DNA of 64,000 nucleotides from Fimbriimonadaceae bacterium (GTDB lineage Bacteria > Armatimonadota > Fimbriimonadia > Fimbriimonadales > Fimbriimonadaceae): positions 1,054,001 through 1,118,000 of the forward strand of contig JAHBTD010000001.1 of the NCBI GenBank assembly GCA_019638775.1, written 5' to 3'. The position numbers and the translations under genes are program-made. Shown one piece after another: positions 23,635-52,356 of this stretch (positions within the stretch are counted from its first letter, which is position 1; every line of letters starts with the position of its first letter). The notes beneath the pieces are model-generated. The model was not told where the DNA came from. It worked only from the letters and a program-made list of their open reading frames with translations, and ran no database searches.

Positions 23635-24429
23635 ATGAAACTTAAAACTGGCTTTACACTAATCGAGCTGCTTGTGGTGATCGCGATCATCGCCATCATA
23701 GCAGCGCTGATGTTCCCTGTCTTTGGGCGGGCAAAGGTTGCAGCAAAGAAGGCGTCGGCGACGGCGAATGTGCGCCAGCTCAGCATGGGAATTCAGATGT
23801 ATGGGACCGACTACGACGAAATGTATGTCCCTTACCATGATGTGAAAACAAGCATCGGCTTGCCCGACCCAACTGGACGTGGCTATTGGATGGTGAAGAT
23901 CAGCTCCTATCTGGGAAGCAATCCTAAAGCGAGTGGCATGATCAATATGGCGCTTGCTGAGGACCTTTCTCCGATGTTCTTTGACCCCAATGAACCGTTT
24001 AAGACTCAGCTGAATTCTGGATGCAACTTTGGCGTCGTCAGTTCGTGGGGAATCTCTGAAGCGATCGTCGATCAGCTTGGCACGGAGACGAGACCCGCCA
24101 CCCAAACCCCAGTTCCGATGTTCGTGTTTCAGAACCCATCGACTACTGTTCTCCTAGCGCAGACTCGCGATTGGGTTTGTGATGCACAGTTCCCAGGGTC
24201 AGCGTTGGCAGTCACACCCATTAAGAGCGGTCTTGGATGGAGCGCCAAGCAAACAACCGATGGGTTTTACGGCTCGGTGCAGTCGGTGTTTCGCCCAAGC
24301 GACCCCGGAGATGCGCTTGGAAAGAACCTTGTGGCGACGATGGACGGGTCGGTAAAGCTCGTCCCGGCGCATGAACTCGTTGAAAAGAAGGAGTGGTGGC
24401 TGCCTGGGGACGGGGATGACTATCGGTGA
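23635..24429 (+). CDS. type II secretion/prepilin-like protein (N-methylation motif)
   Basis: A 264-residue pseudopilin. MKLKT is followed by the prepilin peptidase site and helix [19 protein letters not shown]; cleavage is expected after Gly6, with methylation of Phe. A globular domain starts at RQLSMGIQMYGTDYDEMY, and near the end GKNLVATMDGSVKLVPA resembles the H-X9-DG tail seen in Armatimonadota and Planctomycetota members. Such proteins are often present in many copies per genome and their role is uncertain. A GGGAGAAG site precedes the ATG. A terminator follows 22 bases after the stop. Confidence 0.87.
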   Translation: MKLKTGFTLIELLVVIAIIAIIAALMFPVFGRAKVAAKKASATANVRQLSMGIQMYGTDYDEMYVPYHDVKTSIGLPDPTGRGYWMVKISSYLGSNPKASGMINMALAEDLSPMFFDPNEPFKTQLNSGCNFGVVSSWGISEAIVDQLGTETRPATQTPVPMFVFQNPSTTVLLAQTRDWVCDAQFPGSALAVTPIKSGLGWSAKQTTDGFYGSVQSVFRPSDPGDALGKNLVATMDGSVKLVPAHELVEKKEWWLPGDGDDYR

Positions 24430-24451
24430 TGGGCCACAAGCAAACAAGAAA

Positions 24452-24483
24452 ACCTCCCGCAATCCTTTTGGGATGCGGGAGGT
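24452..24483. terminator. bidirectional rho-independent terminator
   Basis: The stem is ACCTCCCGCA(A)TCC with GGATGCGGGAGGT around TTTT, preceded by AAAA and followed by TTTTT, so it has a U-run on either strand. It separates the pseudopilin gene from the first convergent PEP-CTERM gene. Confidence 0.9.
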
Positions 24484-24504
24484 TTTTGCTACCTAGACCT
24501 TAGC

Positions 24505-25131
24505 TTAGGCAGATTTCTTTCGCCGTCGGAGAAGGGCAAGCGCGCCAACTCCTAGAACAGCCATTGTCGCGGGTTCAGGCACAGGCTGAGCCTCAACGTA
24601 GATGGAGATCTCGGGCGTAAACGCTTGACCATCCCAGTTGTTCAGGTCGCCCGCATTCGAGAACCAGAACGTGCCGTTATCAGCATAGACGCTGTTCTGT
24701 GTGTGGCCCCCCAGACTGTAGGCATCTACGCCGCTGCCCCCGACTGCACTCAAGGCGAGCCAGTAGCGTTGTCCATTGACGAGCGAGTTCGACGACAGTG
24801 CTGAGGTCACTAAGGTCATAGCGCCAGAGTTGTCCGACACGAACGCCGAAGAAGCCAATACCGTGCTCGTCGGTGCGTTTCCACCGTCAGCAAGCAACAG
24901 GAATTGGAACGTCGAGGGGTCTTGGCCTGAAGACTGAACATAAGCTCCACCGACCGTAGCCACATCACCCGTCGCTCCAGAGTGAATAAAGCTGTTCGCA
25001 TAAATCCGAGTGAAAGGAAGCTGTCCAAGGGGCGACCAGCCGCCTGTATTTGGCGCTTTATCCACCACCACGTAAGCTTGGGACAAAGTTGCTCCCAAGG
25101 CAAAAACTACCAACAAAGTTTTCTTGATCAT
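24505..25131 (-). CDS. PEP-CTERM sorting-domain protein, paralog 1
   Basis: A 208-residue exported protein. The signal peptide is MIKKTLLVVFALGATLSQA, followed by a beta-sandwich-like middle region (NSFIHSGATGDVATVGGAYV, FQFLLLADGGNAPTSTVLAS, NGTFWFSNAGDLNNWDGQ). The C-terminal sorting signal is VPEPATMAVLGVGALALLRR with RKKSA. PEP-CTERM proteins are processed by exosortase and usually end up on the surface or in the matrix; no exosortase is in this window. The start at 25131 is set by GGAGGATTCTG; longer upstream readings run through the promoter. It is about 70% identical by eye to the next two genes. Confidence 0.9.
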   Translation of the reverse strand: MIKKTLLVVFALGATLSQAYVVVDKAPNTGGWSPLGQLPFTRIYANSFIHSGATGDVATVGGAYVQSSGQDPSTFQFLLLADGGNAPTSTVLASSAFVSDNSGAMTLVTSALSSNSLVNGQRYWLALSAVGGSGVDAYSLGGHTQNSVYADNGTFWFSNAGDLNNWDGQAFTPEISIYVEAQPVPEPATMAVLGVGALALLRRRKKSA

Positions 25132-25181
25132 CAGAATCCTCCAAACCTTCATGCCGAATCGAATATACGAACCCGACCACG

Positions 25182-25230
25182 CCAGTATACTAACGACAGC
25201 AACATTAGTGTAGCTCGCACAATTACGGGG
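25182..25230 (-). promoter_or_regulatory. conserved upstream element of PEP-CTERM paralog 1
   Basis: On the minus strand CCCCGTAATT (25230-25221) is followed after 30 bases by GTATACTGG (-10-like TATACT). The same pair with 29-30-base spacing precedes both other paralogs. The distal block is too far upstream to be a -35 and may be an activator site. The rest of the 331-base gap to the next gene holds only the terminator of that gene and no recognisable CDS. Confidence 0.6.
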
Positions 25231-25400
25231 AAACATCGCACCCAAGAAAACTGATGTTGTGCCTCGATAGTCCTTACCCTTGGACCTACAAAATAACTCT
25301 ACTCACGGCTTCCAGCTACCCCTTCCTACCTCTTAAAGCACCGTTCTATCCAAGAGCCTCGCCATAGGATTGATGGTTGGTCGAGGAGCCAACTCGAAGC

Positions 25401-25437
25401 AAAAAAGTCTCCCGTACCCTTGTTTGGGGCGGGAGAC
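25401..25437 (-). terminator. rho-independent terminator of PEP-CTERM paralog 2
   Basis: The stem GTCTCCCG/CGGGAGAC with a G-rich loop is followed on the minus strand by six T. It lies 26 bases after the stop of the gene at 25463. Confidence 0.85.
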
Positions 25438-25462
25438 TCCTACGTTTGTCAGATGCCTATCG

Positions 25463-26083
25463 TTAGGCCGACTTCTTTCGTCGTCGGAGAAGGGCAAGAG
25501 CGCCCATCCCGAGAACTGCCATGGTCGCAGGCTCCGGAACCGGTCGTGCCTCAAGGTAGATCGCCATTTCAGGCGTCAGGCCTTGGCCGTCCCAGTTGTT
25601 CAGGTCACCTGCATTGGAGTACCAGAAAGTGCCGTTATCGGCATAGATGCTGTTCTGGGTGTGACCGCCCATCTGGTAAGCGTCTCCACCGCTGCCACCA
25701 ACTGTGCTAAGAGCAAGCCAGTAGCGCTGTCCGTTCGTCAACGAAGCTGGCGAAAGACCAGCGGTAACGAGTGTCAGGGTCGTCGAACTTGTCGATGTGA
25801 AGCCCGACGAAGCCAAGATTGTGCTTGTCGGAGCGTTGCCACCATCGGCAAGTAGAAGGAATTGGAATGTCGTCGGCGATGCACCTTGGGCCAGCATATA
25901 AGCGCCAGCTACTGTGGCAACATCACCGGTTGCACCCGAGTGAATGAAGCTGTTTGAATAGATTGGTGTTGCCCCTAATGGGAACCACCACGGACCGATA
26001 TCTGGCGTTTTGTCTATGACCACATAGGCCTGAGAAAGGGTTGCCCCCATTGCAAAAACTACCAACAAAGTTTTTTTGATCAT
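25463..26083 (-). CDS. PEP-CTERM sorting-domain protein, paralog 2
   Basis: A 206-residue paralog of the neighbouring genes, with the same signal peptide (MIKKTLLVVFAMGATLSQAY) and middle blocks (NSFIHSGATGDVATVAGAYM, ASPTTFQFLLLADGGNAPTS). The sorting signal is VPEPATMAVLGMGALALLRR with RKKSA. The segment after the signal (DKTPDIGPWWFPLG) differs most between paralogs. It has its own promoter block and terminator, so the three genes are separate transcription units rather than an operon. A GGAGGATTCTG ribosome-binding site is identical to that of paralog 1. Confidence 0.9.
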   Translation of the reverse strand: MIKKTLLVVFAMGATLSQAYVVIDKTPDIGPWWFPLGATPIYSNSFIHSGATGDVATVAGAYMLAQGASPTTFQFLLLADGGNAPTSTILASSGFTSTSSTTLTLVTAGLSPASLTNGQRYWLALSTVGGSGGDAYQMGGHTQNSIYADNGTFWYSNAGDLNNWDGQGLTPEMAIYLEARPVPEPATMAVLGMGALALLRRRKKSA

Positions 26084-26133
26084 CAGAATCCTCCAAACTT
26101 CTACCCTGATTCGCATATACAAACCAGGCCACG

Positions 26134-26182
26134 CCAGTATACAAACGACCGCAACATAAGTGTAGCTAGCACAATTACGGGG
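26134..26182 (-). promoter_or_regulatory. conserved upstream element of PEP-CTERM paralog 2
   Basis: CCCCGTAATTGTGC at the distal end and GTATACTGG 30 bases downstream, nearly identical over the whole block to the element of paralog 1. The remaining part of the 342-base gap shows no gene, only the terminator of paralog 3. Confidence 0.6.
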
Positions 26183-26362
26183 AATGTGGCCTGCCAAAGG
26201 CTCGTTATGGGCGACCGCAGTATTGCAGGTTCCCTGCTTCTCCAAGTCGCACTACAGTTACCCTTACTACTTTATGTAATCTTAGTACGGTTCAGCGACT
26301 TCCCAGTGGCCCGGCCACCAAACTCAACCTTTGCTCTGCAACTAGAGAGCGACATCCAGCGA

Positions 26363-26402
26363 CAAAAAATGACCCCCGCACCCAAGGATGGGGCGGGGGT
26401 CA
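26363..26402 (-). terminator. rho-independent terminator of PEP-CTERM paralog 3
   Basis: The stem TGACCCCCGC/GCGGGGGTCA (26370-26402) is followed on the minus strand by six T, 23 bases after the stop of the gene at 26426. Confidence 0.87.
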
Positions 26403-26425
26403 ACTCGTGTGTCAGATAACTTAGG

Positions 26426-27046
26426 TTAAGCTGACTTCTTTCGTCGTCGGAGAAGGGCAAGTGCGCCAATTCCGAGAACAGCCATCGTTGCAGGCTCCGG
26501 TACCGGACGAGCTTCCACGTAGATCGCCATCTCAGGCGTGCGATTTTGGCCATCCCAGTTGTTCAGGTCGCCAGCGTTTGAGAACCAGAATGTGCCGTTA
26601 TCGGCATAAACACTGTTCTGAGTGTGAGCTCCCATCTGATAGGAGTCTCCACCACTACCACCGACCGTGCTTAGGGCAAGCCAGTACCGTGTGCCGTTGA
26701 CCAATGAATTAGCCGAGAGCCCAGCCGTTACCAATGTCAGCGTCGTCGAACTTGTCGACGTAAAGCCTGACGAAGCCAAGACCGTGCTGGTCGGGGCGTT
26801 TCCACCATCCGCCAGCAGCAGGAATTGGAACGTGGTTGGCGAAGCGCCCTGAGCCAACATGTATGCGCCACCTACAGAGGCCGAATCGCCGGTAGCTCCA
26901 CTGTGGATGAAGCTGTTCGCGTAAATTGGGGTTGTGCCGAGTGGGTTCCAAAACGGACCGACATCTGGCGTTTTGTCAATTAAGACGTATGCTTGGGACA
27001 GTGTTGCCCCCATCGCAAAAACTACCAACAAAGTTTTCTTGATCAT
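26426..27046 (-). CDS. PEP-CTERM sorting-domain protein, paralog 3
   Basis: A 206-residue paralog. The signal peptide is MIKKTLLVVFAMGATLSQAY, the middle region contains NSFIHSGATGDSASVGGAYM and QFLLLADGGNAPTSTVLASS, and the C-terminal signal is VPEPATMAVLGIGALALLRR with RKKSA. It is closest to paralog 2 over the central TSSTTLTLVTAGLS block. ATG 27046 follows GGAGGATATTG; the TTG just upstream is unlikely. Tandem triplication with individual promoters suggests dosage or variation of a surface protein. Confidence 0.9.
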   Translation of the reverse strand: MIKKTLLVVFAMGATLSQAYVLIDKTPDVGPFWNPLGTTPIYANSFIHSGATGDSASVGGAYMLAQGASPTTFQFLLLADGGNAPTSTVLASSGFTSTSSTTLTLVTAGLSANSLVNGTRYWLALSTVGGSGGDSYQMGAHTQNSVYADNGTFWFSNAGDLNNWDGQNRTPEMAIYVEARPVPEPATMAVLGIGALALLRRRKKSA

Positions 27047-27096
27047 CAATATCCTCCAAATTCACAAATTAAATGGAATATTCAATCTGCGTCCCC

Positions 27097-51330: not shown

Positions 51331-51484
51331 GATTGAATTGTACGAACCCCTTTGGCACCCCTGGTCTTTCCGACCCACCTCGAAGTCGATCTATGCACGA
51401 ATTTCACGCATTTAGGAACAGCAGTCTCTGTTGATTCACTGCTTTCGTTGCGAAACCCATCGGGTAAATACACGCAAAAATTTC

Positions 51485-51513
51485 TTGACTTCTTTGGAAT
51501 GAAGCTTTAGAAT
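51485..51513 (+). promoter_or_regulatory. sigma-70-type promoter of candidate small RNA 1
   Basis: TTGACT (51485-51490), a 17-base spacer and TAGAAT (51508-51513). It lies in a gene-free stretch of 573 bases (51331-51903) and points at a transcript that ends at the terminator 51594-51635. Confidence 0.7.
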
Positions 51514-51519
51514 GTGTTC

Positions 51520-51635
51520 AGCGTCACACGCGACGCAACAGAGGGCACCAAAGAGCGCCGGCTAAGCAAACCAAGCAAAGAACACCATTGATCGCCTGAC
51601 GTAATCTCCTCCTTCGTGATTCGTCAGGCTTTTTT
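51520..51635 (+). ncRNA. candidate small RNA 1 with anti-SD-mimic terminator loop
   Basis: About 115 bases between a good promoter and a rho-independent terminator, with no start codon followed by a usable frame. The stem-loop GCGTC/GACGC (51521-51536) is followed by a linker with TAAGCAAACCAAGC and AGAACACC. The terminator is GCCTGACG/CGTCAGGC (51594-51601/51622-51629) plus six T. The 20-base terminator loop contains CCTCCTTC, complementary to a strong Shine-Dalgarno site. The linker and loop octamer recur in the second unit at 51766. It matches no RNA family I can name. Confidence 0.65.
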
Positions 51636-51765
51636 GTGCGCCATAGTAGGCGAAACTTGCTCTCGCATGCGCAAAAGGAACCTATGTTCGGGGAAACGAA
51701 CAGAAAGTGCGCAAGAAAAGGCGTCTCACAAATTGGTGTTTCGGGTCATATTGTTAACATAAGTT

Positions 51766-51866
51766 GCTTTAAGCAACGAATTGAGCGAGCGATATAAGCA
51801 AGCCAAGCGTAGAACACCAACCATTGCCCCGACGGTCTGCCTCCTTCAACCCGTCGGGGTTTTTTT
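51766..51866 (+). ncRNA. candidate small RNA 2, or ribH leader attenuator
   Basis: A second unit with the same order. A small hairpin GTTGC/GCAAC (51763-51777) is followed by the linker TAAGCAAGCCAAGC and AGAACACC. The terminator is CCCCGACGG/CCGTCGGGG (51827-51835/51851-51859) with seven T. The 15-base loop again contains CCTCCTTC. A weaker promoter TTGGTG (51733-51738), 16 bases, TAACAT (51755-51760) precedes it. It ends 37 bases before the ribH ATG, so it could be a free small RNA or an attenuator. It does not resemble the FMN riboswitch. Confidence 0.6.
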
Positions 51867-51903
51867 GTGCATACTCTTCCCTGTGGAAGAGGTTCTCGTT
51901 CGT

Positions 51904-52356
51904 ATGGATGCTGCTGGAAAGCGCTTTGCCATTGTGGCGAGCCGTTGGAACGAGTTCGTCGTCAAGGAGCTTGTCGAAGGCGCTCTGGACGAGCTAAAAC
52001 GCCACGGGGCCAACGACATCGAAGTCATCCGCGTTCCAGGCACTTGGGAGATTCCGCCTGTCGTTCAAGTCCTTTACGAACGGCCCGAGCCATCGCGCCC
52101 GCACGGCATCATTGCTCTAGGGTGCATTCTCCAAGGCGCAACCACCCACGCGCAGCTCCTCTCAGCCGATGTCAGCGACGCTCTCATGCGGATGCAAATA
52201 GAGTACAAGGCACCTATTGCCTGGGGAATTCTTACACCCGAATCCACGGAGCAGGCCATTGACCGTGCGGGTATGAAGATGGGAAACAAAGGCCGCGAAG
52301 CCGCGCTTGCCGCCCTTGAGCTAGCTAACGTAATCGACGCGGTGAAGGGCGGCTAA
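51904..52356 (+). CDS. ribH: 6,7-dimethyl-8-ribityllumazine synthase
   Basis: A 150-residue lumazine synthase of the usual length. KRFAIVASRWNEFVVKELVE is the N-terminal strand and substrate-binding Trp. VIRVPGTWEIPPVVQVLYER follows, with IIALGCILQGATTHAQLLSA and the terminal ELANVIDAV. In most members the block reads GAVIRGxTxHF; here GCILQGATTHA, so the catalytic His is kept while the Arg that contacts the butanone phosphate becomes Gln. It condenses the two precursors of riboflavin. ATG 51904 follows AAGAGG. It is translated just ahead of the TauE-like gene, with no gap. Confidence 0.92.
   Translation: MDAAGKRFAIVASRWNEFVVKELVEGALDELKRHGANDIEVIRVPGTWEIPPVVQVLYERPEPSRPHGIIALGCILQGATTHAQLLSADVSDALMRMQIEYKAPIAWGILTPESTEQAIDRAGMKMGNKGREAALAALELANVIDAVKGG

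Follow-up and report, generated by a model that had tools for sequence, protein, structure and literature searches.

Upstream of ribH in the window (the whole stretch of 64,000 nucleotides that we analysed), two neighbouring units, A and B, each exhibit an A/C-rich linker followed by a terminator hairpin with a C/U-rich loop (Table 1). Are these units ordinary terminators, a leader of ribH or genes of small regulatory RNAs (sRNAs), and what would their common loop bind? An original prediction, made from the letters of the window, had described them as twin candidate sRNAs, each composed of a promoter-like element, a small 5' hairpin, an unpaired linker and a Rho-independent terminator, with loops mimicking the 3' end of 16S rRNA.

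Two linker and terminator units ahead of ribH

Both units lie between a divergent minus-strand gene (antibiotic biosynthesis monooxygenase domain) and the plus-strand ribH, and in both the linker TAAGCAA-R-CCAAGC-NN-AGAACACC is separated by a short spacer from a strong intrinsic terminator whose loop contains CCTCCTTC. Folding reproduces the hairpins of the original prediction, including a predicted 5' hairpin in unit A (GCGTC..GACGC). The promoter-like element proposed for each unit was recovered for unit A, where it is the sole such match within 51380-51960 (0.3 expected); ahead of unit B no promoter reaches the 9-of-12 threshold and only a weaker candidate is present.

Table 1. Features of the two units, their neighbour and a second terminator type (positions in the window, or in the locus named)
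Feature	Position	Strand	Remark
Promoter A, sigma-70-like (TTGACT, 17 nt, TAGAAT)	51485..51513	+	10 of 12 matches
Predicted small RNA A, about 118 nt	51520..51637	+	ends placed by the promoter (5') and the U-tract (3')
Linker A, A/C-rich, unpaired (TAAGCAAACCAAGCAAAGAACACC)	51563..51586	+	conserved; retained in three genomes of one other genus
Terminator hairpin A and U-tract, stem GCCTGACG/CGTCAGGC	51594..51635	+	hairpin 51594-51629, then T6; loop 51608-51615; homologues covary
Predicted small RNA B, about 105 nt	51763..51868	+	without strong promoter
5' hairpin of unit B (GTTGCTTTAAGCAAC)	51763..51777	+	predicted by folding
Linker B, unpaired, conserved (TAAGCAAGCCAAGCGTAGAACACC)	51795..51818	+	genome-wide linker pattern scan
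Terminator hairpin B and U-tract, stem CCCCGACGG/CCGTCGGGG	51827..51866	+	hairpin 51827-51859, then T7; loop 51840-51847
ribH (6,7-dimethyl-8-ribityllumazine synthase), neighbour outside unit	51904..52356	+	PF00885, E = 4.7e-47
Second terminator type	L061:1307-1366, L085:1319-1373, L115:1790-1845		also in L080, L091, L093

Across the 4.3-Mb genome the linker pattern TAAGCAANCCAAGCNNAGAACACC has exactly two matches, in units A and B, and its reversed form has none. Allowing one mismatch mainly yielded chance matches inside coding DNA. The octamer CCTCCTTC by itself is not rare, with 6 occurrences in the window against 2.7 expected; it is the combination of linker, loop and terminator, not the octamer alone, that exceeds chance. 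Folding energies of the units are moderately better than those of shuffled sequences (z = -1.7 to -2.8).

Homologues in related genomes

A DNA search of 60 relatives retrieved only one homologue, in genome G017 (CP054189.1), because the stems diverge. This copy adjoins two genes that we take, from their translations, to be lpxD and lpxC, and not ribH. Beyond CP054189.1, a genome-wide pattern scan returned only three archaeal matches, which represent one common conserved stretch without a terminator hairpin and were rejected. The pattern TGTCCTCTCCNTCC gave 31 matches against 8 for its backwards control; the ten inspected exhibit neither hairpin nor U-tract and were therefore attributed to chance.

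We built a covariance model, R1, from units A and B and the G017 homologue, with a few N placeholders and one base of unit B replaced or dropped for register. R1 matched strongly three genomes of the genus of G017 (E-value = 1e-14 to 5e-19), and weakly other genomes exhibiting the loop UGUCCUCUCC, which is absent from the R1 input. Two successive models, R2 and R3, were made from an enlarging set of sequences. At E-value ≤ 0.01, R3 found the RNA in 40 of the 85 genomes examined from the same bacterial family, against 2 of 206 elsewhere in the phylum, so that the further copies in relatives anticipated by the original prediction do exist. Both matches outside the family are weak: one is without the motif, and the other (L128, same order) consists of two tandem CU-loop terminators. 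The family holding the RNA is probably Fimbriimonadaceae, in the Armatimonadota. Within genus g19 (probably Fimbriimonas, including G085), the RNA was not found save for one dubious match in G091; six loop-pattern matches in that genus were ascribed to chance. A match in G231 was rejected, its loop missing the motif.

Genomes with the RNA have only about one to five copies. Tandem copies are present in this genome (G000), G014, G069, G081 and G052, and probably in G065. In G014, one of the tandem copies (2657-2712) is closely followed on its own strand by a c-di-AMP riboswitch (RF00379, 80.8 bits; L141:2441-2569, minus strand).

Stems, loops and genomic neighbours

Covariation of the stems, expected by the original prediction, is pronounced. 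Among 73 distinct sequences, all 11 pairs of the terminator stem change on both sides, 95.5% of cells being paired, and covariation scores 0.855, whereas sliding the partner gives 0.06-0.12 and shuffling 0.20; the score was also computed in a 30-sequence version. The sequences were aligned to fit the model, and the search procedure is biased towards the loop. We judge the analysis not to be circular, because the loop type switched unselected between R1 (CUCCUCCUUC-type) and its matches (GUCCUCUCC), and because of the synteny described below. Every terminator has a paired stem; the covariation therefore demonstrates a conserved hairpin and not regulation per se, and the case for regulation depends on the conservation of the loop.

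The loop is almost fixed: most genera have UGUCCUCUCC, and this genome and a related genus have CUCCUCCUUC or CCUCCUUC. CCUCUCC is present in 58 of the 73 sequences and the CCUCCUUC form in four (this genome and genus g18). Most positions of the CCUCUCC loop hold 1.6-1.9 bits, against less than 0.4 bits for several stem columns. Such a loop, fixed on a changing stem, bears out the proposed selection on RNA, and is what is expected of a loop that binds either a target or a protein.

CsrB is known as a sponge RNA for CsrA, a protein that binds GGA. By analogy, the CU-rich loop might be the binding site of an Hfq-like chaperone or another RNA-binding protein, the RNA acting as a sponge. The near uniqueness of the loop sequence would fit such a site, whereas a generic seed pairing with Shine-Dalgarno (SD) sequences could drift in register; the tandem multicopy arrangement resembles that of sponge RNAs, and no target enrichment was observed (see below). 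We nevertheless find this unlikely: CsrA, the best-known such protein, binds another motif, a strict protein site would hardly accommodate the switch to CUCCUCCUUC in this genome and g18, and CU-rich terminator loops that pair with mRNAs are well known.

The neighbours of family members vary and include lpxB, lpxC, rpoN, nfo, ychF, ribH and others. Seventeen match entries lie downstream of lpxB, in synteny across six genera (g30, g4, g21, g17, g8 and g31). Other copies accompany a gene with a GAF domain together with one resembling endonuclease IV (nfo), follow rpoN, or stand beside lpxC (genus g18). Of 68 closest downstream ORFs, as given by crude ORF calls, 39 lie on the strand opposite to the RNA. 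The varied neighbours and the opposite-strand ORFs thus favour free-standing genes and disfavour a leader or attenuator. In particular, it is highly improbable that unit B attenuates ribH in cis and that unit A is its relic. Terminator B does end about 35 nt ahead of the start codon (ATG) of ribH, and no promoter is evident in the interval, but copy A is away from ribH, the homologues adjoin other genes, and no FMN riboswitch or other Rfam leader was found.

The units might instead be ordinary terminators or mRNA 3' ends with a loop preferred in this lineage, implying no regulatory RNA. Every copy indeed ends in a good intrinsic terminator, and several are found 90-340 nt past a gene on the same strand, for example lpxB or rpoN. 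However, another terminator already separates lpxB from the RNA in the g30 genomes, the hairpin comes after a conserved linker, copies at other loci converge with or diverge from their neighbours, and one to five copies per genome do not make a general terminator feature; we consider this explanation quite unlikely. In genera g30, g17 and g11, the sRNA is preceded at a distance of about 130-190 nt by a second terminator type (Table 1). This second type differs in its loop, has a leader of its own (AAGCAA or GAACAAGCGAGTAT) and may be an upstream operon end or another small RNA.

Regions upstream of family members exhibit a promoter score of 5.09, against 4.28 for shuffled sequences. The members are probably free-standing trans-acting sRNAs, their transcription being predicted from sequence. 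We favour, as a probable explanation, that units A and B are paralogues within a family of trans-acting sRNA genes specific to this lineage, with the seed in the terminator loop. Each predicted RNA (about 105-120 nt here) would be composed of a variable 5' domain, the A/C-rich unpaired linker and the Rho-independent terminator hairpin, in which the stem of about 11 bp would change freely and the loop would serve as a nearly invariant CU-rich seed. Held open atop the terminator, the loop would pair with purine-rich stretches in translation-start regions of a limited set of mRNAs, and this pairing, which we infer from the anatomy of the RNA and from analogy, would block or destabilise those mRNAs. 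Hfq would bind the U-tail and the A-rich linker; an hfq gene is present in 82 of the 85 genomes of the family, this genome included.

Known loop-seed RNAs and candidate targets

Over a unit, whether in the window or at 17 homologous loci, no Rfam 15 family attains its gathering score, in agreement with the earlier failure to name one. The family is previously uncatalogued and is therefore classed as a new family of a known kind, with a conserved unpaired seed within a structured RNA, as in base-pairing sRNAs. The sole weak Rfam match of similar anatomy is the atoC RNA (RF01733; 15.7 bits, E-value = 6.2, below the gathering threshold of 50 bits). It likewise exhibits a terminator with a CCCUCCU loop after an unpaired leader, but has no sequence relation to the units outside this like-shaped terminator loop.

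Three described systems are comparable. In RepG of Helicobacter pylori, which controls LPS-related expression, the C/U-rich terminator loop is an experimentally demonstrated seed (PMC8295292). The terminator-loop seed is shared with the present family, and the LPS role of RepG may be set beside the location of many members next to lpxB or lpxC; RepG, however, pairs with a G-repeat in one leader, whereas the present family exhibits multiple copies, a conserved linker and hfq in the genome, and we claim no sequence homology. The LhrC1-5 RNAs of Listeria monocytogenes (111-114 nt) are multicopy and bind Hfq, and their CU-rich terminator loop is among the sites demonstrated by experiment to bind mRNAs near the SD (PMC4132741). 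They resemble the present family in copy number, length and loop, but are near-identical copies with three UCCC motifs (loop A, single strand and terminator loop), whereas here the stems have diverged and a single CU-rich motif is confined to the terminator loop in both units. SmelA075/SmelA099 and RSs0680a of Rhizobiales and Rhodobacter carry a fixed anti-SD-like CCUCCUCCC loop on changing stems, in several copies per genome (PMC3927594). This constant loop on varying stems is also found here, as is the number of copies; those RNAs, however, have two to four hairpins, each with CCUCCUCCC, in contrast to the one terminator hairpin with loop CCUCCUUC or GUCCUCUCC of the present family.

In a literature search we found no regulatory sRNA described for Armatimonadota. 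This poorly studied phylum thereby gains a defined RNA family whose model and seed are available for tests in cultured relatives. The conserved loop suggests that it grips other messages for control. By analogy with Helicobacter and Listeria, the family would be a further, independent instance in which the CU-rich loop of a terminator is likely to serve as the seed for mRNA binding, and such an instance suggests the repeated evolution of this design.

The original prediction suggested more specifically that these RNAs, whose loops were said to have the same bases as the 3' end of 16S rRNA, could globally repress mRNAs with strong GGAGG sites; the loop would then be an anti-SD decoy acting on every such mRNA. 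In this genome the 16S rRNA has the 3' end ...GGATCACCTCCTTA; the loops thus have CCTCCTT in common with it, seven of the eight bases and not all eight. The Rhizobiales CCUCCUCCC-loop sRNAs are likewise thought to block the ribosome-binding sites of several genes (PMC3927594). However, most genera have GUCCUCUCC, which is not the anti-SD sequence, and mimicry of the 16S end is not supported. This genome has few strong SDs: of 730 ORFs in 857 kb, only 5 are preceded by GAAGGAGG, the full complement of CCTCCTTC. Pairing energies between the loop and start regions exhibited no enrichment over shuffled loops in the same 857 kb, a weak test with crude ORF calls as start sites, in which the comparison with internal regions used fractions only and not means, the latter being distorted by empty sequences. 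Target prediction by pairing the octamer with start regions, suggested earlier, thus did no better than with shuffled loops. A global decoy is very unlikely; global repression is not supported, and the targets may be a limited set.

With respect to such a limited set, a search of eight g30 genomes gave only a single exact 11-nt match to the seed at a start site, that of a PEP-CTERM gene in G087. The match (-20.9 kcal/mol) lies one base before the start codon of a typical exported protein. Among four relatives it is partial in G004 and lacking in G083, G094 and G025. The exported proteins of this genome exhibit a borderline enrichment of seed pairing, equally seen with shuffled loops. We would only tentatively propose that these RNAs constitute the first conserved trans-acting sRNA family in Armatimonadota, with a seed kept over about 20 genera on ever-changing stems, tandem duplication and a seed switch from GUCCUCUCC to CCUCCUUC in some lineages, and that it may control envelope or exported (PEP-CTERM) proteins together with Hfq.

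Elsewhere, the minus strand of the window encodes a tandem set of three paralogous PEP-CTERM proteins (about 24400-27050) with N-termini of the form MIKKTLLVVFA[ML]GATLSQAYV. Each of their genes is preceded by TTTGGAGGAT, an SD site able in principle to pair with the sRNA loops. Finally, two g30 genomes contain a perfect hairpin GGGAGAGGACA-N5-TGTCCTCTCCC (L188, G092:C1:15212; L194, G090:C1:1982327), the arms of which are the family loop sequence and its complement; this hairpin may bind or mimic the sRNA loop, or may be an ordinary terminator.
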